A stretch of DNA of 64,000 bases from Variovorax sp. PAMC26660 (GTDB lineage Bacteria; Pseudomonadota; Gammaproteobacteria; Burkholderiales; Burkholderiaceae_C). Numbering within the stretch: position 1 is the stretch's first letter; every line of letters starts with the position of its first letter. Shown one piece after another: positions 9,295 to 36,370 of the stretch. A program made the translations under genes and the position numbers. Below the pieces are notes generated by a model. It was not told the origin of the DNA. It saw only the letters and a list, made by a program, of their open reading frames with translations, and did no database searches. The stretch is taken from contig NZ_CP060295.1 of the NCBI RefSeq assembly GCF_014302995.1, positions 7,183,501-7,247,500 of the forward strand, in the 5' to 3' direction.

Positions 9295-9307
9295 CGGGCC
9301 CTGCGGC

Positions 9308-9661: not shown

Positions 9662-9833
9662 GAGAGTCTCCTGGAGTGATGAACTTCACTCTAGGACGCC
9701 CTACTTACCAGCCTGTGAGAACTCGCTTAGCTCCGTGTGAGATGGCCCTTGTGCTTACCCGAAGCCAGTCGGCGCGCATACTGGCCCACCTTTGCTGCTT
9801 CGAGGCCTCGCATGCGAGGCCCCGCCCTCACCG

Positions 9834-10517: not shown

Positions 10518-10565
10518 GGCTCTATATTCGGCCGCTTCGCAATCGCAAATGGCGGCTCTGTGGTG

Positions 10566-11027: not shown

Positions 11028-11055
11028 GCACGTTCACTTCACGCACCACAACCCG

Positions 11056-11337
11056 ATGAACCCACACATTCCCATCGACGCGCGCCTGCAACTCGTCTCC
11101 GACACCCATGTCGAGATCTACTGGTTTCAAGCGAACGGCTTCGTTCGCGCAATCCAGGGCAAGCCAGAGGGCCCGCAGTGCGCGCCGCTGTTTCGCTACC
11201 GGGCTCCGTCCGACGACAGCATCGAGCTGATCGGCTCCGAAGGGATCATCGGCACATGGACCGGCCTCAGGATCGAAGGCAATCTGCTCCATGCCGAACG
11301 CGCGGGCAAGGCCGTGGCTTTTCGCATCGGCGCCTGA
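11056..11337 (+). CDS. Small hypothetical protein, 93 aa
   Basis: No family is recognised. The 93-residue protein starts MNPHIPIDARLQLVSD, has no signal peptide or transmembrane segment, and contains several beta-strand-like stretches (HVEIYWFQANGFVRAI, SDDSIELIGSEGIIGTWTGL), suggesting a small beta-rich domain. Codon use matches its neighbours, which supports a real gene. It follows the GNAT gene closely and ends at the bidirectional terminator at 11353, so it is probably the last gene of a short operon. Confidence 0.6.
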   Translation: MNPHIPIDARLQLVSDTHVEIYWFQANGFVRAIQGKPEGPQCAPLFRYRAPSDDSIELIGSEGIIGTWTGLRIEGNLLHAERAGKAVAFRIGA

Positions 11338-13565: not shown

Positions 13566-13608
13566 CGGAAGTGTTCGCATGGGTGGTATTGCTCTGCGTG
13601 CCATCGCA

Positions 13609-16600
13609 TCAATGACCGGCGGCAGGCTCGGGTGAAGGGCCGGTCGGCGCGTTCTTCTTTTCAGCCGCGTCTTCTTCCGCTTCGTCGTAGAAATTGCCGA
13701 ACATGCCGATGACCAGCGGCAGCACCAGCAGCGTGAACAGCGTGCCGCTGACGATGCCGCCAACGATCACGCAGGCAAAGGGCCGCTGCGTCTCACTGCC
13801 GATGCCGTGCGACAGGGCAGCCGGCAGCAGGCCCAGCCCGGCCATCAGCGCGGTCATGAGGATCGGGCGCAGCCGTACGGCCGCGCCTTCCACGATGGCG
13901 CGTGCCACGGCCGAACCTTCGCGCACGCGCTGCGTCACCTCCTCGACCAGGATCACGCCGTTCTGCACCGAGATGCCTGCTACCGCGATGAAGCCCACCG
14001 CCGCCGACACCGACAGATGCAGGTCGGCCAGCGCCAGCGCTGCCAGCCCGCCGACCAGCGTGAATGGAATCATCCCCAGCACCAGCCCCGCGAGCCGCAC
14101 CGAGCGGAAGGCCCAGAACAGCAGCGAGAAGATCAGTAGCGCGGTCAGCGGCACGATCACCATCAGCCGCTTGGCCGCGCGCTGCGAGTTCTCGAACTGG
14201 CCGCCCCAGGTGAGTTCGTAGCCCGGCGGCAGCTTGACCTGCTCGGCCACCACGCGCTGCGCCTCTTCGACAAAGCTGCCCTGGTCGCGGCCCAGCAGAT
14301 TGACCTTGACGATCACCATGCGCGAGCCCGCTTCGCGGAAGATGCGCGACGCGCCTTCCCGCACCTCGATGGACGCCACGTCGCCCAGCGCGATCGTGCC
14401 CGGCCCGTTGCCGCTCTGCGTGCCCGGCACCGCCAGTTGCAAACCGGCAATGGCATCGACGCTGTTGCGGTGCTTCTCGCCCACGCGCACCACCACGTCG
14501 AAGCGCTTGTCGGCATCGAAGAAGCCGGTCACCGACGTGCCCGACATCGCCTCGTTCACCAGCGTGTTGACGTCGTTGATCGCCAGGCCGTAGCGCGCAA
14601 GACGCGCCCGGTCGGGTGTGATGACAACCTCGGTCTGCCCGCCGATGCGTGTCGCGTCGACGTCGCTCGCGCCCCGAATGCCCTTGATGACCGACGCCAC
14701 CTCCGCGCCCTTGTCGTCGAGGATGTCGAGGTTGTTGCCGATGATCTTGGCAACGATCTCGCCGCGAAAGCCCGACAGCGCCTCTTCCACGTTGTCCTGG
14801 ATCACCTGCGAGAAGTTGGCGCTGATGCCCGGGATCGACTCCAGCTTGCCCGACATGTCGGCGACCAACGCTTCCTTCGAGCTGAAGCGCCACTGGCTGC
14901 GCGGCTTCAGGTCGACCAATATCTCCAGGTTGTTCGGCCCCTTCGGATCGGAGCCGTCATCGGGCCGGCCGACCTGCGCGATCACCCGTGCCACCTCGGG
15001 GTAGCCCAGCAGCTTGGCGCGCACCACATGCTCGACCTCTTTCGTGGACTCCAGCGAGGCCGAGGTGGGCAGCGTGATGGTCAGCCAGATGTTGCCTTCG
15101 TCCAGCTTCGGCAGAAACTCGCTGCCCAGTCGCGGCGCCAGCAGCAATGCCAGCACCACCGGCACCGCCGACAGCAGCAGCGTGATGCGGCCGCGCCGCA
15201 TGGTGAACATCACCAGACGGCGGTAGCGCATCTGCAGCCAGTCGAGCCAGGGCTTGTGCTTCTCGGCCAACGTGCGGCGCTGCAGGGCGTAAGACAGCAG
15301 CGTCGGCACCAGCGTGAAGGTCAGCAGCACCGCGCCCAGCAGCGCAAAGCTCAGCGTGAGCGCCACCGGCGTGAAGATCTTTCCTTCGACCCGCTGGAAA
15401 GTGAAGATCGGCACGAAGGCCAGGATGATGATGGCCTTGGAAAACAGCACCGGATGGGCCAGGTCGGACAGCGTGCGATGCAGCACGCCCATGCGCTGGT
15501 GCCGGGCCTCGGGCGATGCGATGTCGGTCGCGGCCTTGGCCGCCAGCCGCACCATCAGCGCCTCGACGATCACCACCGCGCTGTCGATGATGATGCCGAA
15601 GTCCACCGCGCCCAGCGAGATCAGGTTGGCCGACACGCCGCGCGCATTCATCAAAATGAACGCGAACAGCAGCGCCAGCGGGATCACGGTGGCCACGATC
15701 AGCGCCGCGCGCCAGCTCGACAGGAAGACGATCAGCACCGCCATCACCAGCAGCGCACCGACCACCAGGTTTTCCGCCACGGTCGACACCGTGTGCCTCA
15801 CCAGCTCGGTGCGGTCATACACCGGCACGATCCGCACGCCCGTCGGCAACCTGGCCCGCAGTTGCTCCACCCGCTCCTTGAGCTCGGCGTTGATCTTGGC
15901 GGGGTTGCCGCCCTTGGTCATCGAGACGATGCCCTCGACCACGCTGTCGCGTGCATCGACCGCCACGATGCCGAAGCGCGGGCGCTCGCCGGCGCGCACC
16001 TCGGCCACGTCGGCCACGGTGATGGCCCGGCCCTGCCGCGAGGCGATCACCACATTGCGGATGTCGGCCAGGCTCGCGAACAGGCCGGCGGAGCGCACCA
16101 CCAGCGATGCATCGCCCTGCCGCATCAAGCCACCGCCCGCGCTGCCGTTGCCATTGCCGATGGCCTGGTTGAGCTGGTCCAGCGTGACCTGGTACTTGCG
16201 CAGTGCAAGTGGATCGACCTCGACCTGGTACTCGCGGATGGCGCCGCCGAAGCTCACGACGTCGGCCACGCCCGGCGTCATGCGCAGGAAGGGGCGCACC
16301 GTCCAGTCTTGCAAGGTGCGTATCTGCGCGTCCGACAGGCCGCCGCCTTCGATGGTGTAGCGGTAGATCTCGCCCACTGCCGTGGACAGCGGCGCCAGTT
16401 GGGGCTGCACGCCGGTCGGCAGGGTCACGGTCGAGAGCTTCTCGGTGACCTGCTGGCGCGCGAAGTAGTCATCGGTGCCGTCGGCGAAAGTCAGCGTGAC
16501 GATCGACAGGCCCGTCATGGTGACGGAGCGCACGTTCGACAACTTGGGAATGCCCGACACCTCGCGCTCGATGGGCAGCGTGACGGTGCGCTCCATGTCC

Positions 16601-22677: not shown

Positions 22678-23019
22678 TCAGTGGCTGATCATCCAGGGCC
22701 GTCGCGAAGGCGCGGACTTCGCACCATTGGGCGCCGTCACCGTCGCACCGCGCTTGCCCGAGCTGCAGCAGCCGCACCCCGCCGGGTGCTTGAAGCGCGC
22801 GTAGTCCCGCGAACTGCCCGGCTCCTGCCGTGCGCGCTCGTTGGTTTCCATCGCACGGCGCGTGCCCGATGCCATCAGCGCCAGACGCGGCGCGGCGGAC
22901 AGCACACGCGGCGAGGCCGCCGCGCAATCGGGGCACGCAGCCGGTTCATCGCGCAGGCCCGAAGGCCGAAGCATCTCGAAGCCACCGCATTGCCCGCAGG
23001 CGTAGTCGTAGGTCGGCAT
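22678..23019 (-). CDS. fmdB: FmdB family zinc-ribbon protein
   Basis: A 113-residue protein beginning MPTYDYACGQCGGFEMLRPSGL with CxxC … CPDC, the single zinc ribbon of the FmdB family, followed by a low-complexity tail containing GCGCCSSGK. In Methylophilus, FmdB is encoded with formamidase and suggested to be regulatory; many homologues remain uncharacterised. It is the last gene of the urt-fmd string, 27 bases after fmdA. Its leader is a TTCTG pentanucleotide repeat that leaves no recognisable Shine-Dalgarno, which is odd. Confidence 0.88.
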   Translation of the reverse strand: MPTYDYACGQCGGFEMLRPSGLRDEPAACPDCAAASPRVLSAAPRLALMASGTRRAMETNERARQEPGSSRDYARFKHPAGCGCCSSGKRGATVTAPNGAKSAPSRRPWMISH

Positions 23020-23021
23020 GG

Positions 23022-23048
23022 TCTGTTCTGTTCTGTTCTGTTCTGTTC
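23022..23048 (+). repeat. Pentanucleotide tandem repeat (TTCTG)n in the fmdA-fmdB junction
   Basis: A 27-base tract of period 5: TCTG, four perfect TTCTG units (23026-23045), then TTC. On the coding strand it reads CAGAA repeated. It overlaps the fmdA stop codon and fills the spacer up to the fmdB ATG (23019). Slippage here would change the intercistronic distance rather than a reading frame. Confidence 0.85.
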
Positions 23049-24279
23049 AGCGCAGGTCGTGCGACAGCGGCATGTGGACGCTGCCGTCGATCATCTTCAT
23101 CGGCCCCTGCGCGTTCGGATTGATGTCGAAGTCGAAGATGCCGGTCGGCAGCCACAGCGTGGCGCAGGAGTTCGGCACGTCGACCACGCCGCTGATGTGG
23201 CCCTGCACCGGTGCCGTGCCCAGAATGGAATAAGCCTGCGCACCCGAATAGCCGAACTTCTTCAGGTACTCGATGGCGTTCAGGCAGGCCTGGCGGTAGG
23301 CCACGTTCACATCGAGGTAATGCTGCTTGCCTGACTCATCGACCGAGATGCCCTCGAAGATCAGGTAGTCGTTGTACTGCGGCGTGATGGGGCTGGGCTT
23401 GAAGATCGGGTTCTTGATGCCGTACTTGGCCATGCCGCCCTTGATGAGCGTGACCTTCATGTGCACCCAGCCGGCCATCTCGATGGCGCCGCAGAAGGTG
23501 ATCTCGCCGTCGCCCTGGCTGAAGTGCAGGTCGCCCACGCTCAGGCCCGCGCCGTCGACGTACACGGGGAAGAACACCTTCGAGCCGCGCGACAGGTCCT
23601 TGATGTCGCAGTTGCCGCCATGTTCGCGCGGCGGCACCGTGCGTGCGCCTTCTGCTGCGGCCTTGGCGCGGGCTTCGCCGGTCATCTTGCCCATGTGGGC
23701 GGTGCCCGCGAACGGCGGGTTGGCCAGGCCGGGCACGCGGTCCGGGTCGGTAGCGATGAGCTTGCCTTCGCGCTCGTTCCACATGTCGAGCATCGGCTTG
23801 TCGGGCAGGCAGCCGATCAGGCCGGGGTGGATCAGGCCCGCAAAATTCACGCGCGGAATGTGGCGCGAGCTGGTGAACATGCCCTTGAAGTCCCAGATCG
23901 ATTTCTGCGCTTCGGGAAAGTGGTCGGTGAGGAAGCCGCCGCCGTTCTGCTTCGAGAAGAAGCCGTTGAAGCCCCACAGGCTGTCCTGCTTGGCGCCGAT
24001 GTCGAGCAGGTCGACCACCAGCAGGTCGCCCGGCTCGGCGCCCTTCACGCCCACCGGGCCCGAGAGGTAGTGCACCGTGCTCAGGTCGATGTCGCGCACG
24101 TCGTCGGCGCTGTCGTTGTTCTTGATGAAGCCACCGGTCCAGTCGAAGGTCTCGAGGATGAAGTCGTCGCCCGGGTTGACCCAGCAGGCCATCGGAATGT
24201 CCGGGTGCCAGCGGTTGTGGATGTTCTCGTTCTCGGTCGGCGACTTCGTCAGGTCAACCTTGATCAGCGTGTCCGTCAT
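23047..24279 (-). CDS. fmdA: Formamidase/acetamidase
   Basis: Hydrolyses formamide (and possibly other short amides) to ammonia and the acid; FmdA/AmdA family, 410 residues, usual length. Characteristic stretches are HNRWHPDIPMACWVNPGDDF, FDWTGGFIKNNDSADDVRD, PREHGGNCDIKDLSRGSKVFFPVYV and DLHFSQGDGEITFCGAIEM. Start ATG 24279 follows a strong AAGGAG; the longer frame upstream overlaps urtE and is not used. Coupled with urtABCDE upstream, this operon makes sense as import plus hydrolysis of amides for nitrogen. Confidence 0.95.
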   Translation of the reverse strand: MTDTLIKVDLTKSPTENENIHNRWHPDIPMACWVNPGDDFILETFDWTGGFIKNNDSADDVRDIDLSTVHYLSGPVGVKGAEPGDLLVVDLLDIGAKQDSLWGFNGFFSKQNGGGFLTDHFPEAQKSIWDFKGMFTSSRHIPRVNFAGLIHPGLIGCLPDKPMLDMWNEREGKLIATDPDRVPGLANPPFAGTAHMGKMTGEARAKAAAEGARTVPPREHGGNCDIKDLSRGSKVFFPVYVDGAGLSVGDLHFSQGDGEITFCGAIEMAGWVHMKVTLIKGGMAKYGIKNPIFKPSPITPQYNDYLIFEGISVDESGKQHYLDVNVAYRQACLNAIEYLKKFGYSGAQAYSILGTAPVQGHISGVVDVPNSCATLWLPTGIFDFDINPNAQGPMKMIDGSVHMPLSHDLR

Positions 24280-24316: not shown

Positions 24317-25018
24317 TCAAACGGAGAGATAGGCCTTGATGTGCTCCACATCGGTCTTGTCCCGCGCGGTCTCGTGCACCAGCCGGCCACCTTCGATGAC
24401 GAAGAGCCGGTCGGCCACGTCCATCGCGAAACTCAGCACCTGCTCGGAAACGACGATGGTGATGCCGCGCAGCTTGCGGATCTCGTTGAGTGCCTTGGCG
24501 ATGTCCTTGATGATCGAAGGCTGGATACCTTCGGTGGGCTCGTCGAGCAGCAGCACCTTGGGGTCTGTAACGAGGGCGCGCGCAATAGCGAGCTGTTGTT
24601 GCTGGCCGCCGGAGAGGTTGCCGCCTTTGCGACTCTTCATGTCCCACAGCACGGGGAACAGCGCATAGATTTCTTCGGGGATGCGGCGGGTCTTCGAGTT
24701 TTCCAGGCCGGTCTGGATGTTCTCTTCCACGGTCAGCGTCGGAAAGATCATGCGGCCCTGCGGCACGTAGGCGATGCCCTTGGCAACGCGCCTGAAGCTC
24801 TCGTCGCGCGACACGTCCTGTCCTGCTACCTCGATACGCCCGCTCTTCGATGGCAGCACGCCCATGAGGCTCTTGAACAGCGTGGTCTTGCCCATGCCGT
24901 TGCGGCCCATGATGGCGATGGTTTCGTTCGCATGGCCTTCGAACGAGAGGCCGTGCAGTGCCTCGCTCTGGCCGTAGGCTACGTGCAGGTCTTCTACCTT
25001 CAGCATGACGGTGCTCAT
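24317..25018 (-). CDS. urtE: Urea/amide ABC transporter ATP-binding protein UrtE
   Basis: LivF-type ATPase of 233 residues: Walker A GRNGMGKTTLFK, signature LSGGQQQQLAIARAL, Walker B VLLLDEPTEGIQPSI, with UrtE-like SEQVLSFAMDVADRLFVIEGG. Energises the UrtBC permease at the inner membrane. It is separated from urtD by 372 bases containing the dispersed element at 25088-25328, whereas the other urt genes are close together. Its ATG at 25018 lacks a clear Shine-Dalgarno, as a run of A precedes it. Confidence 0.94.
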   Translation of the reverse strand: MSTVMLKVEDLHVAYGQSEALHGLSFEGHANETIAIMGRNGMGKTTLFKSLMGVLPSKSGRIEVAGQDVSRDESFRRVAKGIAYVPQGRMIFPTLTVEENIQTGLENSKTRRIPEEIYALFPVLWDMKSRKGGNLSGGQQQQLAIARALVTDPKVLLLDEPTEGIQPSIIKDIAKALNEIRKLRGITIVVSEQVLSFAMDVADRLFVIEGGRLVHETARDKTDVEHIKAYLSV

Positions 25019-25390: not shown

Positions 25391-26134
25391 CTAGTGCCCC
25401 AGATAAACGTCGATGACCTTCGGGTCCGCTTGCACCTTCTCCATCGGCCCTTCGGCGAGGATCTTTCCCTGATGCATCACCGTGACCTTGTGCGCAATCT
25501 GCTTGACGAACGCCATGTCGTGCTCGATGACGATCACCGCGCGGTTCTGGCAGATGCGCTTGAGCAGATCGGCTGTGAGTTCACGCTCGCGCGCGCTCAT
25601 GCCTGCAATGGGTTCGTCGAGCATCAGCAGCTCGGGCTCTTGCATCAGCAACATGCCAATCTCCAACCACTGCTTCTGGCCGTGGCTCAACAATCCTGCC
25701 TCGGTGTCGAGCTTGTTGGCAAGGCCAATGTCTTCGGCCACGGCCTGCACCTTCGACTTGACCTCTTCATCGCACTTGAAAGCCAGCGCGCCGAACACCG
25801 AACGCCCCTTCGGAAATGAAACCTCGAGGTTCTGGAACACCGAAAGGTTCTCGTAGATCGAGGGCGTCTGGAACTTCCGACCTATGCCCAACCGCACGCG
25901 CTTGTGCTCGGCCATCTTCGTGAGTTCGGTGTTCTTAAACTTGATGCTGCCGGCGCTGGCGCGCGTCTTGCCGCAGATCAGGTCGAGCAGCGTGGTCTTG
26001 CCCGCTCCGTTGGGGCCGATGATCACCCGCAGCTCGTTCTTGTCGATGTACAGCGTCAGGTCGTCGATGGCCTTGAAGCCGTCGAAGGACACGGTGAGGT
26101 CTTCCACGGCGAGCGCGAAGTCTGTGTTGCTCAT
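25391..26134 (-). CDS. urtD: Urea/amide ABC transporter ATP-binding protein UrtD
   Basis: LivG-type ATPase of 247 residues: Walker A GPNGAGKTTLLD, signature region LSHGQKQWLEIGMLL (Ser-His-Gly-Gln as usual in UrtD/LivG), Walker B LLMLDEPIAGMSARE and H-loop VIVIEHDMAFV. Partner of UrtE on the cytoplasmic face of UrtBC. It follows urtC with a 15-base gap and is followed by the element at 25088-25328. Confidence 0.95.
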   Translation of the reverse strand: MSNTDFALAVEDLTVSFDGFKAIDDLTLYIDKNELRVIIGPNGAGKTTLLDLICGKTRASAGSIKFKNTELTKMAEHKRVRLGIGRKFQTPSIYENLSVFQNLEVSFPKGRSVFGALAFKCDEEVKSKVQAVAEDIGLANKLDTEAGLLSHGQKQWLEIGMLLMQEPELLMLDEPIAGMSARERELTADLLKRICQNRAVIVIEHDMAFVKQIAHKVTVMHQGKILAEGPMEKVQADPKVIDVYLGH

Positions 26135-26149: not shown

Positions 26150-27355
26150 TCAGGCGCGCTGGCTGCCGACACCTTCGGGCAGATGGGGTTCGGGTGGCGT
26201 GGGAGCGGATGCCGGTGGCGTTGTTGTTGTCGCAACCGGTGCTATCGCGGGCTGCACCGACGCCTCGCGCAACGCCTGGCGACGGCCCTTCCACCATGGC
26301 CGGATCTTTTCTTCCCACACGCCGGCCAGCCCCATCGGGAAGGCCATCGTCACGCCGATGAACAGCCCCGCCATCAGGAACAGCCACAGGTCCGGAAAGC
26401 TCTCCGAGAACAGCGTCTTGCCCGCATTCACCAGCAGCGCGCCGTACACCGCGCCCACCAGGCTCATGCGCCCGCCGACCGCGCAGAAGATCACCATCTC
26501 GATGGACGGCACGATGCCCACGAAGCTCGGCGACATGAAGCCCACCTGCAGCGCGAACATGGCGCCGCCGATGCCCGAGAGTCCTGCGGCCAGGCAGAAG
26601 GTGAAGACCTTGAAGTTCGCCACGTCGTAGCCCGAGAAGCGCACGCGGTCTTCCTTGTCGCGCATGGCCAGCAGCAGCGTGCCGAGCTTGCTGGTCTGGA
26701 TCCAGCGGCACAGCAGGATGCTCGACACCAGCAGGCCGACGCAGACGTAGTACAGGATGTACTTGGCACTGTCGGTGCGGGTGTCCCAGCCCAGCATCGT
26801 CCTCAGGTCGGTCATACCGTTGACGCCGCCGGTGTAGCCCTGCTGGCCGATGATGAGCACGGTGCAGATCAGCGCCACCGCCTGCGTGATGATCGCGAAG
26901 TACACGCCGCCCACGCGGCGCTTGAACATCGCGAAGCTCACGAGCCAGGCCAGTGCCATCGGCGCGAGCACCACGAGCATCAGGCTCAGCGGCAGGCTCT
27001 TGAACGGCAGCCACAGCGTTGGCAGCTCGGTGATCTGGTTCCAGTCCATGAAGTCCGGGATGCCGGGCGTCGACTGGATCTTGGTGGTGATGGGGTCGGA
27101 AGCTTCGAGCTTGAGGAACATCGCCATCGCATAACCGCCGATGCCGAAGAACACACCCTGCCCCAGGCTCAGCACACCGCCGTAGCCCCACACCATCACG
27201 AGGCCCACGGCCACGAAGGCGTAGGTGAGGTACTTGCCCACGAGGTTGAGGCGGAAGATGTCGAGCGACAGCGGCAGCACCACCGCGAGCAGCAGCACCA
27301 GCAGCAGCAGGCTGCCGAGCTGGTAGCGCTGGATCGAGGCCTTGATGAAATTCAT
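26150..27355 (-). CDS. urtC: Urea/amide ABC transporter permease UrtC
   Basis: LivM-type inner-membrane permease of 401 residues with about ten hydrophobic segments. Typical features are YAFVAVGLVMVWGYGGVLSLGQGVFFGIGGYAMAMF (split here for length: YAFVAVGLVMVWGYGG, then VLSLGQGVFFGIGGYA) and the cytoplasmic loop MRDKEDRVRFSGYDVANFK. The last 40 residues form a proline/threonine-rich tail. ATG 27355 is preferred because AGGAG precedes it by 9 bases; an ATG at 27388 that overlaps the urtB stop (ATGA) would add 11 residues. Confidence 0.93.
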   Translation of the reverse strand: MNFIKASIQRYQLGSLLLLVLLLAVVLPLSLDIFRLNLVGKYLTYAFVAVGLVMVWGYGGVLSLGQGVFFGIGGYAMAMFLKLEASDPITTKIQSTPGIPDFMDWNQITELPTLWLPFKSLPLSLMLVVLAPMALAWLVSFAMFKRRVGGVYFAIITQAVALICTVLIIGQQGYTGGVNGMTDLRTMLGWDTRTDSAKYILYYVCVGLLVSSILLCRWIQTSKLGTLLLAMRDKEDRVRFSGYDVANFKVFTFCLAAGLSGIGGAMFALQVGFMSPSFVGIVPSIEMVIFCAVGGRMSLVGAVYGALLVNAGKTLFSESFPDLWLFLMAGLFIGVTMAFPMGLAGVWEEKIRPWWKGRRQALREASVQPAIAPVATTTTPPASAPTPPEPHLPEGVGSQRA

Positions 27356-27387
27356 CGGAACGTTCTCCTGCAAGGGAATCGGGTTCA

Positions 27388-28302
27388 TCAGCGGCGGACT
27401 TTCACGGCGAACAGGCCTTGCGGTCGCATCATCAAGATCAAGACGATCAGCGAGAGCGTCAGCACCTTGGCCATCGAGCCGGTCATGAAGAACTCCGAGA
27501 TCGATTGAGTCTGCGCAATGCCGAAGGCCGAAACCACGGTGCCGAACAGGCTGGCCGCACCGCCGAAGGTGACGACCAGGAAGGCATCGACGATGTAGAG
27601 CGAACCCGAGGTCGGACCGGTCGAGCCGATGGTGGTGAAGGCCGCGCCCGCCACGCCGGCAATGCCGCAGCCGATGGCGAAGGTCAGGCGGTCGGTCTTC
27701 TTGGTGTCGATGCCGGTGGCGTTGGCCATGACGCGGTTGGCCACGGTGGCGCGCACCCGCAGGCCCCAGCGGCTCTTGTGCAGCGCGATCAGCACAGCGC
27801 CCGTGACCAGCGCTGTGAGCACCAGCACGAAGAGGCCGTTGATCGGAATGTCGAGGCCTTCATGCGGTGTCCACGAACCCATGAGCCATTCGGGCAGCGT
27901 GGGGCTCACTTCCTTGGGGCCGATGAAGGTGCGAAACATCTGCTGCAGGCCCAGGCTCACGCCCCAGGTGGCGAGCAACGTATCGAGCGGGCGCTTGTAG
28001 AGGTGGCGGATCAGCACCCACTCCACGATCCAGCCGACGATGAAGGCGAACACGAAGGCCAGACCGATGGCGATCGGAAAGTAGTACGGCATGAACGCGG
28101 GCGCCATGCTTTCGGTGACGCGCGCGGCCAGGTAGATGGAATAGGCGCCGATGGTCATGAACTCGCCATGCGCCATGTTGATGACGCCCATCTGGCCGAA
28201 GATGATCGCCAGGCCCAGGCCCATGAGCAGCAGCACCGCGAAGAGACTCAGCCCCGCGAAGCCCTGCATGAGGCCGATGTTCATCATGTCCGACAGAGTC
28301 AT
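27388..28302 (-). CDS. urtB: Urea/amide ABC transporter permease UrtB
   Basis: LivH-type permease of 304 residues, about eight membrane segments. It contains LAIIFGQMGVINMAHGEFMTIGAY (with the conserved GxxNxAHG), the UrtB-like RTFIGPKEVSPTLPEW loop, and the C-terminal LRPQG-type ending MMRPQGLFAVKVRR. ATG 28302 (MTLSDMMNIG) is chosen; the upstream extension lies in the palindromic spacer at 28341-28450 and is not protein-like. Forms the membrane pore with UrtC. Confidence 0.94.
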   Translation of the reverse strand: MTLSDMMNIGLMQGFAGLSLFAVLLLMGLGLAIIFGQMGVINMAHGEFMTIGAYSIYLAARVTESMAPAFMPYYFPIAIGLAFVFAFIVGWIVEWVLIRHLYKRPLDTLLATWGVSLGLQQMFRTFIGPKEVSPTLPEWLMGSWTPHEGLDIPINGLFVLVLTALVTGAVLIALHKSRWGLRVRATVANRVMANATGIDTKKTDRLTFAIGCGIAGVAGAAFTTIGSTGPTSGSLYIVDAFLVVTFGGAASLFGTVVSAFGIAQTQSISEFFMTGSMAKVLTLSLIVLILMMRPQGLFAVKVRR

Positions 28303-28340
28303 GGCGACGGGTTCCGGTGTTGGGGTATTGGGTGTTGGCC

Positions 28341-28450
28341 CCTTCCCCCTCTGGGGGAAGGTTGGGATGGGGGCTCGGCGGCGCTTGCAAGCCCAAGGCT
28401 TCATCAAAGGCCGCTAGCCCCCACCCCTGCCCTCCCCCAGAGGGGGAGGG
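28341..28450. repeat. Pair of inverted REP-like palindromes
   Basis: CCTTCCCCC-TCT-GGGGGAAGG (28341-28361) and CCCTCCCCC-AGA-GGGGGAGGG (28430-28450) are each perfect 9-bp stems with 3-base loops. The second is nearly the reverse complement of the first, so the two face each other in the 162-base urtA-urtB spacer, an arrangement typical of REP/BIME-type elements. They may damp transcription or stabilise the urtA message. Comparable C-rich palindromes are, to my recollection, frequent in Comamonadaceae spacers. Confidence 0.7.
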
Positions 28451-28464
28451 AGAAATGCAAAGAC

Positions 28465-29730
28465 TTATTGATAGCCCTTGGGGAACGGATCCGGCTTGAT
28501 CAACTCAGCCGACTCCGCCACCACCTTGAACGTCCCATCCAACTGCCCCTGCCCAATGCGCGCCTTGCTCCACAGATGGTGGTTCGCATCCAGCTTCACG
28601 TAGCCTTCAGGCGCGGTCTTCAGCTCGATGCCCGGCGAACCCGCCACCACCTTGTCCACGTCGAAGCTGCCCGCCTTCTCCACCGCCGCCTTCCACAGCC
28701 AAGGCCCGAGGTACCCAGCCTGCGTCACGTCGCCGATCACCGCGTCCTTGCCGTACTTGGCCTTGAAGGCCGCGACGAACTTCTTGTTGTTCTCGTTGTC
28801 CAGCGACTGGAAGTACTTCATCGACGAATAGAAGCCCGCGAAGTTCTCGCCGCCCACACCGGTCATTTCGTCCTCGGTCACGGCCAGCGTCAGCAGGAAC
28901 TGCTTGTCGCCGGTGATGCCCGCGGCCTTGAGCTGCTTGTAGAAGGCCACGTTCGAGCCGCCCACCACGGCCGCGAAGATGCAGTCGGGCTTGGCCACCT
29001 TGATCTTGTTGATCAGCGAGTTGAAGTTGGTGTGGCCCAGCGGGTAGTACTCCTCGCCCTTGACCGAACCCTTCTGGAAGTTCTCGATGTGCTTGCGCGC
29101 GATCTTCATCGACGTGCGCGGCCAGATGTAGTCGGAGCCGACGAGGAAGAAGGTCTTGGCCTTCTTCTCCTTCGCGCCCCAGTCCAGGCCCCAGATGATC
29201 TGCTGCGTGGCCTCTTGCCCCGTGTAGATCACGTTCTTGCTCTGCTCCAGGCCTTCGTAGAAGGTCGGGTAATACAAGAGGCCGTTTTCTTTCTCGAACA
29301 CCGGCAGCACGGCCTTGCGCGAGGCGCTGGTCCAGCAGCCGAACACCGCGGCGCAGTGGTCGTTGACCAGCAGCTTCTTCGACTTCTCGGCGAAGGTGGG
29401 CCAGTCGGAGGCGCCGTCTTCCTTGATGACCTTGATCTTGCGGCCCAGGATGCCGCCCATGGCGTTGATCTGGTCGATGGCCAACTGCTCGGCCTGGATC
29501 GAGCCGGTCTCCGAAATGGCCATGGTGCCGGTGGACGAATGCAGTTGGCCCACCGTGACTTCGGTGTCTGTCACCGCGAGCTTGGTGGTGTTGACCTTGG
29601 CCGTGGGGAACTGCCCCTGGCCGAAGCTCAGGCCGCTCAGTCCCAGCATGGGCAGGGCAGCGGCGCCCTGAAGCAGACGACGGCGGCGAAGCGCCAAGGC
29701 ATCAAGGGAAGGATCGGAATCACGCGACAT
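28465..29730 (-). CDS. urtA: Urea/amide ABC transporter substrate-binding protein UrtA
   Basis: Periplasmic receptor of the UrtABCDE transporter, 421 residues. The N-terminus has a Tat-type signal (LALRRRRLLQGAAALPMLGLSGL) and the mature part starts TEVTVGQLHSSTGTMAISETG, followed by GCWTSASRKAVLPVFE and TFYEGLEQSKNVIYTGQEATQQI, all characteristic of UrtA/FmdD. In Methylophilus the equivalent FmdD receptor serves short-chain amides and urea; the co-encoded formamidase favours that here. ATG 29730 has GGAG about 8 bases upstream. First gene of the operon, divergent from the transporter-like sensor kinase. Confidence 0.94.
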   Translation of the reverse strand: MSRDSDPSLDALALRRRRLLQGAAALPMLGLSGLSFGQGQFPTAKVNTTKLAVTDTEVTVGQLHSSTGTMAISETGSIQAEQLAIDQINAMGGILGRKIKVIKEDGASDWPTFAEKSKKLLVNDHCAAVFGCWTSASRKAVLPVFEKENGLLYYPTFYEGLEQSKNVIYTGQEATQQIIWGLDWGAKEKKAKTFFLVGSDYIWPRTSMKIARKHIENFQKGSVKGEEYYPLGHTNFNSLINKIKVAKPDCIFAAVVGGSNVAFYKQLKAAGITGDKQFLLTLAVTEDEMTGVGGENFAGFYSSMKYFQSLDNENNKKFVAAFKAKYGKDAVIGDVTQAGYLGPWLWKAAVEKAGSFDVDKVVAGSPGIELKTAPEGYVKLDANHHLWSKARIGQGQLDGTFKVVAESAELIKPDPFPKGYQ

Positions 29731-29994
29731 CAGGAACTCCAGGCAGGTTGAAGGAAGAGTGAGCCGCGCACCATCGCAGTGCATCGGACGGTGCCCCGAG
29801 CACCATGGCTGGTACTTTAGAAATCACTTGGCCTTCGGCGAATACGTCATTCAACGTAGCGGCCGTCACCCGCCCTGCCCGCAGACTCGCGAGCCAGACA
29901 TCGGTGATCCATCGGTGGCCTGTCCTCGACATGAAGCACAGGGAGCGCTTCTTGCTGTACCTGCCTCATGCCACCGCCGCCGCGAGAACCCGCC

Positions 29995-32900
29995 ATGCAA
30001 TCCGTCTCCGGACAGAAGATCTTTCGCATCCGCCGCGACTACAACGCCTGGGTCGCGAACGAAACGCTGGAGGACTACGCGCTGCGCTACACGCCGCGCA
30101 GCTTTCGCAAGTGGTCGGAGTTCCGCGTGGCCAACGCGGCCTTCGGCGCGACCTCGTTCCTGGCGCTGGAGGCCATCGGCGGGGCCATCGCGCTGAGCTA
30201 CGGTTTCTCGAACGCGCTGTGGGCCATCCTGGTGGTGGGGCTCATCACCTTCCTGACCGGCCTGCCGATCTCGTACTACGCGGCACGCCACGGCGTGGAC
30301 ATGGACCTGCTCACGCGCGGCGCGGGCTTCGGCTACCTGGGCTCCACGCTCACCTCGCTGATCTACGCGAGCTTCACCTTCATCTTCTTTGCGCTGGAGG
30401 CGGCCATCCTCGCGCTGGCGCTGCAGATGTATCTGGACTGGCCGTTGTGGCTGCTGTACGTGGTGTCATCCATCGTCATCATTCCGCTGGTGGCGCGCGG
30501 CATCACGCTCATTTCGGGGCTGCAACTGTGGACGCAGCCGATCTGGATCGTGCTGTTCATCTGCCCCTTCGCCGCCGTGCTGCTGAAGAAGCCCGAGCTG
30601 TTCGCCGACTTCACCAGCCTGCGCGGCCGGGTGTCCGACAGCAGCGGCTTCGATCCGCTGATGTTCGGCGCGGCGGCCACGGTGGCCTTCTCGCTGGTGG
30701 TGCAGATCGGCGAGCAGGTCGACTACCTGCGCTTTTTGCCCGAGAAGACCGCCGCCAACCGGCGCCGCTGGTGGACCGCCGTGCTGGTGGCCGGCCCCGG
30801 ATGGATCGTGCCGGGCATGCTCAAGATGCTGGGCGGCGCCTTCCTCGCATTCCTGGCGCTGCAGCACGAGATCCAGCCCGACCATGCGATCGAGCCGACG
30901 CAGATGTACCTCACGGGCTTTGCGTACGTGCTGCACGACCCGGCGTGGGTGCTCGCCATCACCGTGCTGTTCGTGGTGGTCTCGCAGATGAAGATCAACC
31001 TGACCAACGCCTATGCGGGCTCGCTGGCATGGTCGAACTTCTTCGCGCGGCTCACGCACAGCCACCCGGGGCGCGTGGTGTGGCTGGTGTTCAACGTAGT
31101 CATCGCGGTGCTGCTGATGACGCTGGGCGTGTTCGGCGCGCTGGAGCGCGTGCTCGGCCTGTACAGCAACATCGCCATTGCCTGGGTCGGCGCGCTGGTG
31201 GCCGACCTGGTCATCAACAAGCCGATGGGCTGGAGCCCGAAGACCATCGAGTTCAAGCGCGCGCACCTGTACGACATCAACCCGGTGGGCCTCGTTGCGA
31301 TGCTGGTGGCGGCAGGACTTGCGATGCTGGCGTACTCGGGCGTGCTGGGCCAATGGGCCAAGGCCTTCTCGCCCTTCGTCGCGCTGGCCACCGCCATGCT
31401 GGTCTCTCCGTTGCTGGCGTGGAAGACACGCGGGCGCTACTACCTCGCGCGCACCGACATCGACCGGTGGGCGCCGGGCCAGAGCGTGAAATGCTCGGTG
31501 TGCGACAACAGCTTCGAGTCGGAAGACATGGCCCACTGCCCGGCCTACAGCGCGCCGATCTGCTCGCTGTGCTGCACGCTGGAATCGCGCTGCCACGACC
31601 GCTGCAAGACCGACTCGCGTGCCGCCGAGCAAATGAGCGGCTGGCTGCAGGCACTGCTGCCACCGGCGCTGTCGGCACGCCTGAACTTTCGCGTGGCGCA
31701 TTACCTGCTGGTGGCCGCCTCGTTGATTGCACTGCTGGCCACTGTGGTGGGCGTGGTCTATGCGCAAGAGGCCTTGCTGGGGCCGGACAACGCCGCGATG
31801 GGCACGGCCTTCTTGAAGGTGTTCGCGCTGCTGTCGGTGGTGGCGGCCGTGGCCGCATGGTGGGTGGTGCTGGGCAGCGAGAGCCGGCAGATGGCGCAGG
31901 AAGAATCGAACCGCCACAACAACCTGCTCGCCCTGGAAATCGAAGCGCACCGCCGCACCGACGCCGCGCTGCAAACCGCCAAGGAAGCCGCCGAGGCCGC
32001 CAACCAGGCCAAGACACGCTACGTGGCCGGCATGACGCACGAGCTGCGCACACCGCTCAACAGCATCCTGGGCTATTCACAGATCCTGCTCAAGGGCGAC
32101 GCGGTGACGCCGCCGCGCGAGGCGGTGCAGACCATCCATCGCAGCGGCGAGCACATGCTCGGGCTGATCGACGGCCTGCTCGACCTGGCACGCATCGAGG
32201 CTGGCCGCCTGCAACTGGAGCCGGCGCCGCTTGCCCTGCCCGCCTTTCTCGACCAACTGGTGCACATGGTTCGGCCGCAGGCCGAGAACAAGGGCCTGGC
32301 CTTCGTCTTCACGCACGCCGGCCCACTGCCGCCGTGGGTGCATGCCGATGCGAAATGGCTGCGGCAGATTCTCATCAACCTGCTGACGAACGCCGTGCGC
32401 TTCACCGACAGCGGCACCGTCACGCTGCATGTGGATGCGCGGCGCGAGGTGCTGCGCTTCGACGTGGTCGACACCGGCATCGGCGTGGCGCCGCAAGACC
32501 ATCAGCGCATCTTCCTGCCCTTCGAGCGCGGGGCCGCCGGCCGCCGGCGCGGCGAGCCGGGCACCGGGCTGGGCCTGACCATCACCGGCCTGCTCACGTC
32601 GCTGATGGGCGGGGAACTGAAGCTGGCCCAGACCTCTTCGCAGGGCAGCACCTTCAGCGTGCGCGTGTACCTGCGCGAAGTGGCCGACCCCGGCCCGCAG
32701 GCCAGGAGCGGATCGCTGGGGCAACCCGTGACGGGCTACATCGGCGCGCGGCGCACGCTGCTCGTGGTGGACGACCAGCCGGTGCAGCGCCAGATGCTCG
32801 CCGGCATGCTCGTGCCGCTGGGCTTCGAGGTGCGCGAAGCCGCCAGTGGCACCGAATGCCTGGACAGCCTGCGCGAAGAGCTGCCGTCGGCCATCCTGCT

Positions 32901-33402
32901 CGACCTGACGATGGACGACATGGACGGCTGGCAGACCGCCACGTCGGTGCGGGCCTCGGGCTTCAAGGACATCCCGATCATCATCGTCTCGGCCAACATG
33001 TTCGAGAACCAGGCCGAGCGGCTGCGTGCGGCCGGTTGCCAGGCCTTCGTCGGCAAGCCGGTGATCGAGTCGGAGCTGATCGACACGCTGGAGCGGCACC
33101 TGGGCCTCGAATGGCTTTCTTCCAACGATGCGCTGTCTTCGCAGGCCGACGAAGAAACGGCCCGCCGCCCGCCACAGCTCGCGTTGACGGAAGACGACCG
33201 CGCCGAGCTGATGCGCCTCGTGCAGATGGGCCATGTGCGCGGCCTGCACACCGCGCTCGACCGGCTGGCGGCCGCATCGCCGTCAGCGGCCACCACCTGC
33301 ACCTGGCTGCGCGGCATGGTCACGCGCTTCGAACTCGACAACCTCCGCAACGCACTGGCAGAAGATGCAGACACTCCACTCGGCTCCCTCCTTTCGCCCT
33401 GA
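29995..33402 (+). CDS. Hybrid sensor kinase with an N-terminal NCS1-type transporter domain
   Basis: A 1135-residue fusion. Residues ~1-490 resemble an NCS1 (purine/cytosine/hydantoin) permease: DYNAWVANETLEDYALRYTPRSFRKWSE, then some twelve membrane segments with YYAARHGVDMDLLTRGAGFGYLGS (residue 94 on). A cysteine-rich patch (Cys500, Cys503, later CPAYSAPICSLCC and CHDRC) looks metal-binding. After two more membrane segments comes the kinase: H-box GMTHELRTPLNS with His682, N-box LLTNAVRFTD, G2 GTGLGLTITGLL. A receiver follows (Asp926-Asp927, phospho-Asp970) and a short helical C-terminus that may be a degenerate phosphotransfer domain. The regulator gene overlaps its end by 38 bases. Divergent from urtA, so a sensor for amide, urea or purine nitrogen is inferred. 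ATG 29968 is an alternative start. Confidence 0.88.
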   Translation: MQSVSGQKIFRIRRDYNAWVANETLEDYALRYTPRSFRKWSEFRVANAAFGATSFLALEAIGGAIALSYGFSNALWAILVVGLITFLTGLPISYYAARHGVDMDLLTRGAGFGYLGSTLTSLIYASFTFIFFALEAAILALALQMYLDWPLWLLYVVSSIVIIPLVARGITLISGLQLWTQPIWIVLFICPFAAVLLKKPELFADFTSLRGRVSDSSGFDPLMFGAAATVAFSLVVQIGEQVDYLRFLPEKTAANRRRWWTAVLVAGPGWIVPGMLKMLGGAFLAFLALQHEIQPDHAIEPTQMYLTGFAYVLHDPAWVLAITVLFVVVSQMKINLTNAYAGSLAWSNFFARLTHSHPGRVVWLVFNVVIAVLLMTLGVFGALERVLGLYSNIAIAWVGALVADLVINKPMGWSPKTIEFKRAHLYDINPVGLVAMLVAAGLAMLAYSGVLGQWAKAFSPFVALATAMLVSPLLAWKTRGRYYLARTDIDRWAPGQSVKCSVCDNSFESEDMAHCPAYSAPICSLCCTLESRCHDRCKTDSRAAEQMSGWLQALLPPALSARLNFRVAHYLLVAASLIALLATVVGVVYAQEALLGPDNAAMGTAFLKVFALLSVVAAVAAWWVVLGSESRQMAQEESNRHNNLLALEIEAHRRTDAALQTAKEAAEAANQAKTRYVAGMTHELRTPLNSILGYSQILLKGDAVTPPREAVQTIHRSGEHMLGLIDGLLDLARIEAGRLQLEPAPLALPAFLDQLVHMVRPQAENKGLAFVFTHAGPLPPWVHADAKWLRQILINLLTNAVRFTDSGTVTLHVDARREVLRFDVVDTGIGVAPQDHQRIFLPFERGAAGRRRGEPGTGLGLTITGLLTSLMGGELKLAQTSSQGSTFSVRVYLREVADPGPQARSGSLGQPVTGYIGARRTLLVVDDQPVQRQMLAGMLVPLGFEVREAASGTECLDSLREELPSAILLDLTMDDMDGWQTATSVRASGFKDIPIIIVSANMFENQAERLRAAGCQAFVGKPVIESELIDTLERHLGLEWLSSNDALSSQADEETARRPPQLALTEDDRAELMRLVQMGHVRGLHTALDRLAAASPSAATTCTWLRGMVTRFELDNLRNALAEDADTPLGSLLSP

Positions 33403-34285
33403 ATCCGAACGCCCCGTGGTGCTGGTGGTGGACGACGCCCCCAGCAGCCTGGGCATGCTGTGCGACACGCTGGAGGCCAGCGGCTACACCGTGCTGGTGG
33501 CGGCCGACGGCGAAGCCGCGCTGCAGCGGCTCGAACTGGTGGTGCCCGACGCGATATTGCTCGACGGCCTGATGCCCGGCCTCTCGGGGTTCGAGACCTG
33601 CCGGCGCATCAAGGCCAACCCGGCGCTGGCGCACATCCCGGTGCTGTTCATGACCGGGCTGTCGGAAACCGCACACGTGGTCGAGGGCTTCGAGTGCGGC
33701 GGCGTCGACTACGTGGTGAAGCCCATCCGTGCGCAGGAAGTGCTGGTGCGGCTGCACACGCATGCGCGCAATGCCCGCATCACGCGCATGGCACGCGATG
33801 CGGTCGATGTGGCGGGCATGGGCGTGGTGTTCGTCGACACGCGCGGGCGCATCGCATGGCGCTCTCCGCAGGCCGCGCTGTGGCTGCACGCGCTCGAAGA
33901 TCCGGTGGCACCGGGGCTGCTGCCGCTTTCGCTCGAAGCGGCGCTGGTGCCCGGCGTAGCCATCGTCGTCAACACTGCGACCGGCATGCGGCTTTCGGTG
34001 CGCAACCTCGGTGCGGCGGCATTGGGCGAAACGATGCTGCTCTTTGCGATGCAGCGCGATGGTGCCGCCGGCGCTTCTTCCGCGCGGCTGGCCGAAGCCG
34101 CCCTCACGCCGCGCGAGACCGAGGTGCTTTCCTGGCTCGCCAAGGGCAAGACCAACCGCGACATCGGCGAGATCCTGGGCACCAGCCCGCGCACGGTGAA
34201 CAAGCACCTGGAGCACATCTTCGAGAAGCTGGGCGTGGAAACACGGGCAGCGGCTGCGGCGCTGGCAAGCGGTCAACTGGTCTGA
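33365..34285 (+). CDS. LuxR/NarL-type response regulator with extended middle domain
   Basis: A 306-residue regulator: receiver (VVLVVDDAPSSLG, phospho-Asp in DAILLDGLMPGLSGFE, Lys in YVVKPIRAQEV), a ~100-residue middle segment resembling a PAS fold (AGMGVVFVDTRGRIAWRSPQAALWL), and a C-terminal LuxR helix-turn-helix (LTPRETEVLSWLAKGKTNRD, then TVNKHLEHIFEKLGV). Overlaps the hybrid sensor gene by 38 bases, so the two are surely co-expressed and probably partners. Likely target is the divergent urt-fmd operon. Confidence 0.9.
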   Translation: MQTLHSAPSFRPESERPVVLVVDDAPSSLGMLCDTLEASGYTVLVAADGEAALQRLELVVPDAILLDGLMPGLSGFETCRRIKANPALAHIPVLFMTGLSETAHVVEGFECGGVDYVVKPIRAQEVLVRLHTHARNARITRMARDAVDVAGMGVVFVDTRGRIAWRSPQAALWLHALEDPVAPGLLPLSLEAALVPGVAIVVNTATGMRLSVRNLGAAALGETMLLFAMQRDGAAGASSARLAEAALTPRETEVLSWLAKGKTNRDIGEILGTSPRTVNKHLEHIFEKLGVETRAAAAALASGQLV

Positions 34286-34289
34286 CAGA

Positions 34290-34778
34290 TCAGGGGATCA
34301 CTGCCGTGAGGTTCTGGTCCGCCACATGCCGCTGCTCGGGCGTGAAGGCTTCGTAGAGCTTCGAGAGCGCATCGCTCACGGTCTGCATGCGCCGGGCCCG
34401 GTCTTGCGCCTGTGCGGTGCGCTGCTGCATGAACTGCAGGGCAGTCTGGTCGTCGGCAGGCGCCGCGCTCGCCATGCCACTGCGGCCCGCAAGGTCCCAC
34501 ACCGCATCGGAAAAATGGTCCCACAGCACGGACTGCTCCGGCGTGACCATCAGTTGCAGGCGCAGGTCGTAGAGCTTGTCCCGGATCTTGCTGGCCGCCG
34601 TGGCGGGCGTGGAGAGGCCGTCGCCGGTGCGCGGGCTCGCCGTGCTGTCGGAACGTGCGCCGCGCCGGCCGCCACCACCCATGCCACCGCCGCCGCCGCC
34701 GAATTGCGCAAAGCTGTAGCCGCTCACGGCGATCAGGGTCGCGGCGAGCGCGAACCTGCGAAGGGGTTTTTTCATCAT
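34290..34778 (-). CDS. Spy/CpxP-like periplasmic protein (LTxxQ-type)
   Basis: A 162-residue exported protein. Signal peptide MMKKPLRRFALAATLIAVSGYSFA, a glycine-rich stretch (FGGGGGGMGGGGRRG), then helical sequence with two TPEQ motifs (LMVTPEQSVLWDHF and EAFTPEQRHVADQ) at the places where Spy/CpxP proteins have LTxxQ. Such proteins are periplasmic chaperones or stress sensors, often under CpxR control. ATG 34778 or 34775, both served by AGGAG. A GTAAA-N6-GTAAA pair lies 80-95 bases upstream. Convergent with the LuxR regulator (4-base gap). Confidence 0.7.
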   Translation of the reverse strand: MMKKPLRRFALAATLIAVSGYSFAQFGGGGGGMGGGGRRGARSDSTASPRTGDGLSTPATAASKIRDKLYDLRLQLMVTPEQSVLWDHFSDAVWDLAGRSGMASAAPADDQTALQFMQQRTAQAQDRARRMQTVSDALSKLYEAFTPEQRHVADQNLTAVIP

Positions 34779-34857
34779 CCTGGCTCCTGGGTCATCCGGC
34801 CCTCGAAGGGCCATCGTGCATTTCAGGAGCCCCGACTGTCTGGCAGGTTGCGAGGCC

Positions 34858-34890
34858 GTAAACCCGAGGTAAAGCCGGCCGTCTTTACCT
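34858..34890. promoter_or_regulatory. GTAAA direct repeat and AGGTAAAG inverted repeat upstream of the Spy-like gene
   Basis: GTAAA at 34858-34862 and 34869-34873 are spaced by six bases, close to the enterobacterial CpxR box (GTAAA-N5-GTAAA). The second copy is also the left arm of a perfect inverted repeat, AGGTAAAG (34867-34874) with CTTTACCT (34883-34890). It lies between the GltI-like gene's end and the Spy-like gene's start. Regulation by a CpxR-like protein is inferred from the gene family and the box. Confidence 0.45.
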
Positions 34891-34907
34891 GCTTTGCCCA
34901 AGCCGCT

Positions 34908-35819
34908 CTATCGCGCCTCGTAGTCTTCCATGGGCTTGTCGGTGGGGTTGGCCCAAGCGGCCTTCGTCAAGGCGCTGGCCGGCAATCCCACCTTCGAGTT
35001 GTGCGGCGGAATGGGCTGCATGAACCACTTGTCGTAGATTCGCGCGACATCTCCGCTTTTGGCCAGCGACACCACGCTCTGGTCGACGATCTTCTTGAAC
35101 GCGGCGTCTCCCTTCGGAATCATGATCGCGATCGGCTCGACGCTGAGAACCTGGTCGAGCAGCCTGTACTGCGCCGGCTCCTTGCTTTTGGAGATCAGCG
35201 TCGCAAGGATCTGGCCGTCGGCGGCAAAGCCGTGCGCGCGGCCCGATTCGAGCAGCAGGAAGCCCTCGCTGTTGTCCTTGGCAAGCACTTCCGCAATGTC
35301 GTTGGCGCCATCGCGCTTGAGCTTTCTCAGGAGCTGAACGGAGGTGCTGCCCGTGGTGGCGGCCACGGTCTTGCCGGCAAGCTGCGCCGACGCCGTGATG
35401 CCGGAGGCTGCCTTGACGGCGATGCGAACGCCCTCCACGTAAAGCGTGGGAGCGAACGCCACGTCTTTCTGCCGCGCGGCGTTGTTCGTCGTGGTGCCGC
35501 ACTCGATGTCCACCGTTCCGTTCTGCACCAGCGGCATGCGGTTCTGTGGCGTGACCAGTTGGTACTTCACGCTGATCTTGTCGTTTTGCAGCGCCTTGCG
35601 GATGTCTGCAATGACAAGTTCGCACACCTCGACATGAAAGCCCGCATAGCTGCCGGGCCCCAGGGTGAAGGACATGGCTCCCGACGCGTCGCGCACGCCC
35701 ATGGTGATGGCGCCGGACTCCTTGATATTCTTCAGGGTGTCGGTCTGGGCAGATGCGTTCCCGACCGACAGCAGGAGTGCCGCGGTGGTTACAGCCGCAA
35801 GAAGGCATTGTTTTTTCAC
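34908..35819 (-). CDS. gltI: Glutamate/aspartate-type ABC transporter substrate-binding protein (GltI-like)
   Basis: Periplasmic receptor of 303 residues. Signal peptide MKKQCLLAAVTTAALLLSVGNASA; mature part with LVTPQNRMPLVQNGTVDIECGTTTNN and YDKWFMQPIPPHN, both diagnostic of the GltI group (SBP_bac_3). No permease or ATPase genes follow, so it may use a transporter encoded elsewhere. The start is GTG 35819 with GAAGGG at 6 bases. It is 9 bases downstream of the VOC gene and probably co-transcribed; the divergent LysR regulator is the likely controller. Confidence 0.88.
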   Translation of the reverse strand: MKKQCLLAAVTTAALLLSVGNASAQTDTLKNIKESGAITMGVRDASGAMSFTLGPGSYAGFHVEVCELVIADIRKALQNDKISVKYQLVTPQNRMPLVQNGTVDIECGTTTNNAARQKDVAFAPTLYVEGVRIAVKAASGITASAQLAGKTVAATTGSTSVQLLRKLKRDGANDIAEVLAKDNSEGFLLLESGRAHGFAADGQILATLISKSKEPAQYRLLDQVLSVEPIAIMIPKGDAAFKKIVDQSVVSLAKSGDVARIYDKWFMQPIPPHNSKVGLPASALTKAAWANPTDKPMEDYEAR

Positions 35820-35828
35820 GGGCGCCCT

Positions 35829-36269
35829 TCAGACGGCAAACAGCGAATCCAGGTCCGCGAAAGACTTCAGTTCGAGGGCGTTGCCCGACGGGTCGAGAAA
35901 GAACATCGTGGCCTGTTCACCCGGCTCACCCTTGAATCGAACGTACGGCTCGATCACGAATGGGGTCTGGCGCGCGATGAGCTTCTCGGCCATGGCCTGC
36001 CACTTGTCCATCGGCAGCACGGCGCCGAAATGACGCACGGGCACGTTGTGGCCATCCACGGCGCTGAGGGCCTTGTGGCCGCATTCGTCGGGCGCCAGGT
36101 GCGCCACGATCTGATGACCGTAGAAGTTGAAGTCGACCCACTCGGGCGCGCTGCGGCCTTCCGGGCATCCGAGCAACTCGCCGTAGAAGGCGCGTGCTTC
36201 GGCGATGTCACGAACGGGAAAAGCCAGGTGGAACGGGATGCGGGTTTCGGGAGCGCTCATGGGTTTCAT
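35829..36269 (-). CDS. VOC-superfamily (glyoxalase/bleomycin-resistance fold) protein
   Basis: A 146-residue vicinal-oxygen-chelate protein with likely metal ligands visible: His in [24 protein letters not shown], His in [15 protein letters not shown] and Glu in [13 protein letters not shown]. These fit a metal-dependent lyase or dioxygenase, or a fosfomycin-resistance-like relative; the substrate is unknown. Start ATG 36269 (MKPMSAP) or 36260 (MSAP). First gene of a two-gene unit with the GltI-like receptor, divergent from the LysR gene. Confidence 0.85.
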
Positions 36270-36318
36270 CGCGGGAAGAAGTTCAGGGTGGCCGGACTTT
36301 AAGCAGCAGGCCGCATTA

Positions 36319-36338
36319 CCGAAAACGATATATTTCGG
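36319..36338. promoter_or_regulatory. CCGAAA-N8-TTTCGG inverted repeat at the LysR divergent promoter
   Basis: CCGAAA (36319-36324) and TTTCGG (36333-36338) form a perfect 6-8-6 inverted repeat with an A/T-rich centre. It lies 33 bases before the LysR start and 50 bases before the VOC start. Position and symmetry suit a LysR recognition site. Confidence 0.55.
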
Positions 36339-36370
36339 CACTGAGCATCAATAATTTCGATGAATTCGCC

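Follow-up and report, generated by a model that had tools for sequence, protein, structure and literature searches.

What does a transporter-like module do at the front of a histidine kinase, next to an operon for amide uptake and hydrolysis? The question is raised by a stretch of 64,000 nucleotides from the soil bacterium Variovorax sp. PAMC26660 (the window; contig NZ_CP060295.1, positions 7,183,501 to 7,247,500 of the forward strand). Here, a plus-strand gene at 29995..33402 encodes a hybrid sensor kinase of 1135 residues with an N-terminal module of the NCS1 transporter type. The gene is overlapped by that of a LuxR-type response regulator and diverges from urtABCDE-fmdAB. The protein is probably a transporter-derived sensor kinase in which the NCS1-type module senses amides, and the regulator activates the divergent operon through a palindrome.

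Architecture of the fusion protein

The kinase frame is open from 29968 and ends in a stop codon at 33400-33402, with ATG 29995 as its likely start. The protein has the domains and motifs of a hybrid histidine kinase, the domains being matched in Pfam: HisKA (residues 672-737; 32008..32205, H-box from His682), HATPase_c (785-893; 32347..32673) and Response_reg (923-1032; 32761..33090, receiver motif LLDLTM at residue 968), on the plus strand, while residues 1-660 have no Pfam match. Is such a frame real? A frame of at least 1117 residues is open in 74 of 80 related loci, the best 80 of 234 confirmed relatives from a genome contig scan, and the other six hold frames of 532-1088 residues that end at or almost at the contig end. 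A chance open frame is rejected by this conservation, and the fusion is confirmed. Among the candidates of protein searches that reached at least 7999, its closest named proteins belong to Variovorax. Two shorter fusions (L198 8499-11156 and L204; frames of 894 and 899 residues) match the query to residue 891-893 and so lack the receiver; both have fmdA downstream on the same strand.

The regulator gene (33365..34285, +) probably starts at ATG 33365, which would give an overlap of 38 nt with the kinase gene. Its adjacent Response_reg and GerE domains (Pfam) are those of a LuxR-type two-component output, and a homologue follows the fusion in 73 of the 80 loci, several of the others being cut by contig ends. 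The original prediction had described one frame joining about twelve membrane segments, a Cys patch, a histidine kinase and a receiver, overlapped by a LuxR-type gene; reading frames, Pfam and the structure model agree with it.

The NCS1-type module

The module occupies residues 26-478 (30070..31428, +). A structure model of residues 1-662 (m658b5db2ac97), built on a 99-row alignment, has a mean predicted local distance difference test score (pLDDT) of 82.8 and a predicted template modelling score (pTM) of 0.82; single-sequence prediction reaches a pLDDT of only 44.7. The alignment-based model contains about twelve long or broken helices as far as residue 478, and its residues 25-480 match the folds of CodB and Mhp1, which share 16-18% identity with it and have no kinase. 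The predicted structure is the NCS1 version of the LeuT fold. When the module profile is aligned with NCS1 (four rows) in hhalign, the probability is 95.3 (E 2.4e-8), against 0.1 for the control UrtC. The NCBIfam cytosine permease model gives a weak match (E 1.3e-6; 27.4 bits, far under the cut-off of 326), and one Klebsiella homologue exceeds the cut-off of PF02133, the NCS1 family (37.7 vs 23.5 bits). Comparison with NCS1 structures such as Mhp1 had been set beforehand as a check on the predicted fold, which the CodB/Mhp1 match and the hhalign result bear out.

Residues K333, N335, N338, E240, Q241, D243 and R246 are identical in all 160 aligned module sequences, from fusions and from kinase-less homologues (standalones) alike. 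In this alignment, labelling by length placed three contig-truncated fusions (L040, L077, L079) among the standalones, so that the group of 18 standalones with eight Cys holds 15 real ones, and the H-box pattern misses variants, so that a missing H-box does not equal kinase loss. The Na+ site residues Ser312/Thr313 of Mhp1 differ in the window protein, where they align with K333/I334 (hhalign, via the Mhp1 alignment).

The divergent operon

The operon lies on the minus strand. It comprises urtA (28465..29730, presumed start; substrate-binding protein, Peripla_BP_5), the permease genes urtB (27388..28407, 5' end uncertain) and urtC (26150..27388), both BPD_transp_2, and the ATPase genes urtD (25391..26134; ABC_tran) and urtE (24317..25018, from translation alone, presumed start). 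These are followed by fmdA, for a formamidase/acetamidase (23047..24279; FmdA_AmdA, 2.7e-183), and a gene for a small Cys-rich protein (22678..23019, from translation), named fmdB by its position after fmdA.

How constant is this order? Within 1.5 kb, the fusion diverges from urtA in 71 of the 80 loci and directly from fmdA in four. Of the remaining five, one has no flank and four have neither gene there (L074, L075, L077, L083): urtA is 3.2 kb off in L077, and L074 and L075 have a urtA type of 40% identity further away. A second set of 56 stretches covers all 18 other places of a class-wide scan and 40 of 58 places of a phylum-wide scan, and holds 58 modules, one of them standalone. Among these, 35 diverge from urtA (four from the 36-41% type), and for 16 of the other 23 the stretch includes fmdA, urease or a gene resembling urtA. 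For three members of this set (L106, L107, L108) the query match covers the module only (to residue 645-691), and fusion status is taken from frame length (1007-1272 residues). In the family of the window's genome, surveyed with one genome per genus, the module occurs in 53 of 90 genomes and fmdA in 24; all 24 have the module (one, G1231, with a frame of just 420 residues), and 23 of the 24 fmdA genes lie at most 8 kb from it.

The arrangement also occurs on a Klebsiella plasmid (L235 1906-11378), with urtABCDE, an annotated formamidase gene and a divergent kinase fusion. A preprint gives UrtABC and AmiF as a lineage feature; a search of its text did not find the term 'histidine kinase' (PMC13060141).

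The Cys patch and the kinase-less homologues

Between module and kinase lies a patch of eight Cys (residues 497-540; 31483..31614, +) at positions 500, 503, 515, 523, 526, 527, 533 and 537, matched by no Pfam family. In an alignment of 81 sequences, each Cys is conserved without exception in the 80 or 81 that have a letter there. The model places short strands over the patch and, after it, two further hydrophobic helices absent from the earlier description (residues 565 to about 630; 31687..31884, +), at 565-593 and from 599 onward, leading into the kinase coil. The original prediction took the patch to be a metal-dependent coupling module. Such coupling to the kinase is not supported, and a coupling module of the kinase alone is rejected: all eight Cys are kept in the 60 kinase-less homologues of alignment A2, and a form with four Cys exists in Acinetobacter, Moraxella and Klebsiella. 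Retention of the patch in homologues without a kinase makes it part of the transporter module. Metal binding is plausible; one or two sites are suggested by the eight Cys together with short strands and a helix, and the four-Cys forms would hold one.

Alternatively, the fusion may be mainly a transporter whose kinase is governed by another signal, such as redox state or a metal at the Cys patch. The eight invariant Cys would suit such a role, as would the seven module residues identical in 160 sequences. We consider it highly improbable, since the patch, kept without a kinase, serves the transporter module itself, and the operon already includes an ATP-binding cassette (ABC) transporter.

What do the standalones accompany? 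A search with one of 559 residues scored 7999 and found at least 5987 proteins, with a length limit that excludes most fusions. Among the 120 matches listed, all have 498-571 residues and no Pfam domain, and one is named a partial hybrid kinase. In three Acidihalobacter genomes fmdA, fmdB and amiE come after a standalone, which diverges from a fusion with its regulator; these three stretches contain no match to urtA-D. A Methylovirgula plasmid carries fusion, regulator and standalone, then an amidase gene, with fmdA-fmdB divergent from fusion and regulator. One Acidihalobacter genome has a third, divergent standalone (L270 8806-10551) before an Amidase (PF01425) gene. Shorter, four-Cys forms precede ureE to ureC in Acinetobacter johnsonii, diverge from fmdA in Moraxella and, in Klebsiella, follow ureG (L234 7947-9554); the Klebsiella protein, annotated as a cytosine permease, is a candidate urea carrier. 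Overall, eight of nine examined standalones adjoin fmdA, an amidase gene or urease; given their linkage to amidases, the standalones remain candidates only. Kinase-less proteins beside fmdA or urease that are named purine-cytosine, allantoin or cytosine permease are 44-54% identical to the window's module and share with it K333 and E240-Q-x-D-x-x-R246; they differ in having no kinase and, in the Acinetobacter, Moraxella and Klebsiella forms, four of the eight Cys.

Spread and urease-linked paralogues

Relatives of the family are present in many other bacteria: at E ≤1e-20, the module is detected in 15 of the 274 class genomes, in 52 of 398 from the phylum and in 26 of 385 from another class. 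The window's own genome has one further module (1098138-1099832), inside a second fusion with a LuxR-type regulator gene (7264-10977, minus strand, of L104, which is 1089000-1108999 of this genome). It diverges from urease genes, ureA (10992-11291) and ureC (12238-13953) among them, on the same stretch. Of the two copies in this genome, one would therefore seem to serve the amide operon and the other urease. Urease is also divergent from the fusion in five other loci (L109, L174, L179, L182, L184); in L180 and L211 it is located upstream, on the strand of the fusion.

In a tree rooted by choice on the four-Cys forms, which includes every third urt-fmd fusion, omits the three truncated ones and gives support for two groups only, the 15 eight-Cys standalones group in a single clade (support 0.971) next to the fusions. 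Those fusions that are linked to urease are not monophyletic. A tentative scenario, of which we are slightly more doubtful than confident, is that this NCS1-fold branch, which has no Pfam family of its own, consists of urea and short-chain amide carriers, the kinase-less members acting in several lineages as the transporters that belong to urease and formamidase clusters. Fusion to a hybrid kinase, as a single event, would then have produced widespread transceptors that measure the substrates they formerly carried, one paralogue being for amides and the other for urea.

The palindrome and the proposed mechanism

The region between fusion and urtA contains a palindrome, TACGTCATTCAACGTA (29843..29858, no strand; TACG-N8-CGTA), the presumed site of the regulator. 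Of 108 regions between fusion and urtA or fmdA (102 and 5, with that of the window making up the total), 96 contain TACG-N8-CGTA. A score of at least 13/16 against TACGTCAATTGACGTA is reached in 93 of the 108, compared with 0.09% of mononucleotide shuffles. These figures measure conservation and do not amount to an independent test, as the consensus was itself drawn up by eye on part of the counted regions and many loci are close kin. The palindrome is also present in all three Acidihalobacter regions between fusion and standalone, outside the original set, and recurs in loci of Burkholderiales, Pseudomonas and Acidihalobacter before urtA, fmdA or the standalone gene. In the window's genome, TACGTYANNNRACGTA has one exact match, at 29843-29858, and one more with one mismatch. 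Within the window, a related pattern has one match at up to two mismatches, as compared with at least one in 18 of 100 shuffles. A search of 29700-30050 for sigma-70 promoter or terminator patterns found none. The conserved divergent order and the conserved intergenic palindrome bear out urtABCDE-fmdAB as the likely target, as first proposed.

How might the system work? The NCS1-type module would bind, and perhaps carry, formamide or another short-chain amide. The Cys patch and the extra hairpin would transmit the resulting conformational change to the dimerisation helices. Phosphorylation would take place at His682, and the phosphate would be passed to the overlapping LuxR-type regulator, directly or via the internal receiver. 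The regulator would bind the palindrome and activate urtABCDE-fmdAB, resulting in amide uptake and hydrolysis. In the urease-side branch, the same design would report urea.

Several results weigh against this reading. PF02133 is unmatched by the window protein and by all 28 members of alignment A1, and a PDB sequence search with the module profiles A1 and A3 returns nothing but a zinc-finger peptide at chance level (E 3.7); the same search with the NCS1 gene of L003 gives no match either. The loci share kinship, so their counts are not independent. For seven of the 58 modules of the second set (L106, L107, L108, L110, L113, L114, L115), the stretch fetched, short in some cases, lacks urt, fmd and urease genes. 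Hits to these genes are likewise absent from the 15.7 kb that hold an Acinetobacter baumannii fusion and a divergent four-Cys standalone (L236 5171-10441), the exception among the nine standalones examined. Twelve of the 108 urt/fmd regions lack the palindrome, as do all six urease-linked promoter regions. At up to one mismatch, the genome gives three hits, two of them the same site, versus 12 for the backward control, because of which loose matches are meaningless. Finally, the substrate is assigned solely from neighbouring genes.

Does the palindrome belong to this regulator at all? It could be the site of another, with the LuxR-type regulator having no action on urt-fmd and the gene order simply inherited, as its absence from the urease-side promoters might suggest. 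This is improbable in view of its recurrence in Burkholderiales, Pseudomonas and Acidihalobacter before urtA, fmdA or the standalone gene, and of its single mismatch-free match in the genome. A different doubt concerns the signal. The module may sense uptake flux or another ligand (purine, hydantoin or some other nitrogen compound), with the neighbours reflecting general nitrogen supply. The solved NCS1 structures are named cytosine and hydantoin transporters, and one distant standalone, besides an adjoining amidase gene, has genes for adenosine deaminase and Bmp no further than about 7 kb off, the former at about 5 kb. Against this, fmdA, amidase or urease genes are common neighbours of fusions and standalones in distant lineages, and we regard this alternative as rather unlikely. 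Of the amide, urea or purine nitrogen first proposed as the signal, amide and urea are supported by gene context only, from the fusions and the eight standalones; purine as first choice is rejected on gene context, no systematic search for purine genes having been made.

Relation to known transporter-type sensors

Amide sensing by such a fusion would make the system a further variant of the transporter-type sensor kinases. In the portions available of the respective papers, CbrA, CrbS and RpuS have SLC5 modules linked to kinases through STAC (PMC13022988, PMC5715377, PMC9100948). The window protein does not match SLC5 (PF00474), and between its module and HisKA there is no Pfam match, the linker in the model being the Cys patch and two helices. 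The analogy with CbrA of Pseudomonas, drawn at the outset, holds in that a LeuT-fold transporter module is joined to a kinase via a cytoplasmic domain; CbrA differs in its histidine-binding SLC5 module, STAC and PAS, and the part of the paper available mentions neither receiver nor Cys patch (PMC13022988). CrbS/CrbR, as far as the available text describes it, likewise joins a transporter-type module to a hybrid kinase: an SLC5-STAC hybrid kinase with a LuxR-type regulator, involved in acetate use, whose target promoters carry an inverted repeat at which CrbR acts (PMC5715377). Its target is acs; the Variovorax system has instead an NCS1-type module, an eight-Cys patch, an extra hairpin and urt-fmd as target.

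The titles returned by a literature search, in partial listings, include none on an NCS1-kinase fusion, and the family is apparently unstudied. In one genome paper a urtABCDE cluster close to fmdA is reported with a LuxR-type regulator and a hybrid kinase, the available part making no mention of a transporter portion (PMC13296017), and formamide uptake is suggested for urtABCDE beside fmdA in the accessible text of another (PMC13209695). Since the known transporter-kinase sensors in the literature found, as far as available, all have SLC5 modules, NCS1 would be the second transporter family joined to kinases. Fusions and kinase-less sisters beside the same enzymes allow a direct test of the change from carrier to sensor by module swap, and the family offers a candidate amide/urea sensor as well as candidate carriers for urease and formamidase clusters.

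Genes beyond the regulator

On the other side of the regulator gene, LTXXQ, SBP_bac_3 and glyoxalase-like genes (Pfam) lie on the minus strand at 34293-36341 of the window. The SBP_bac_3 gene is found in none of the 80 related loci and the LTXXQ gene in six.
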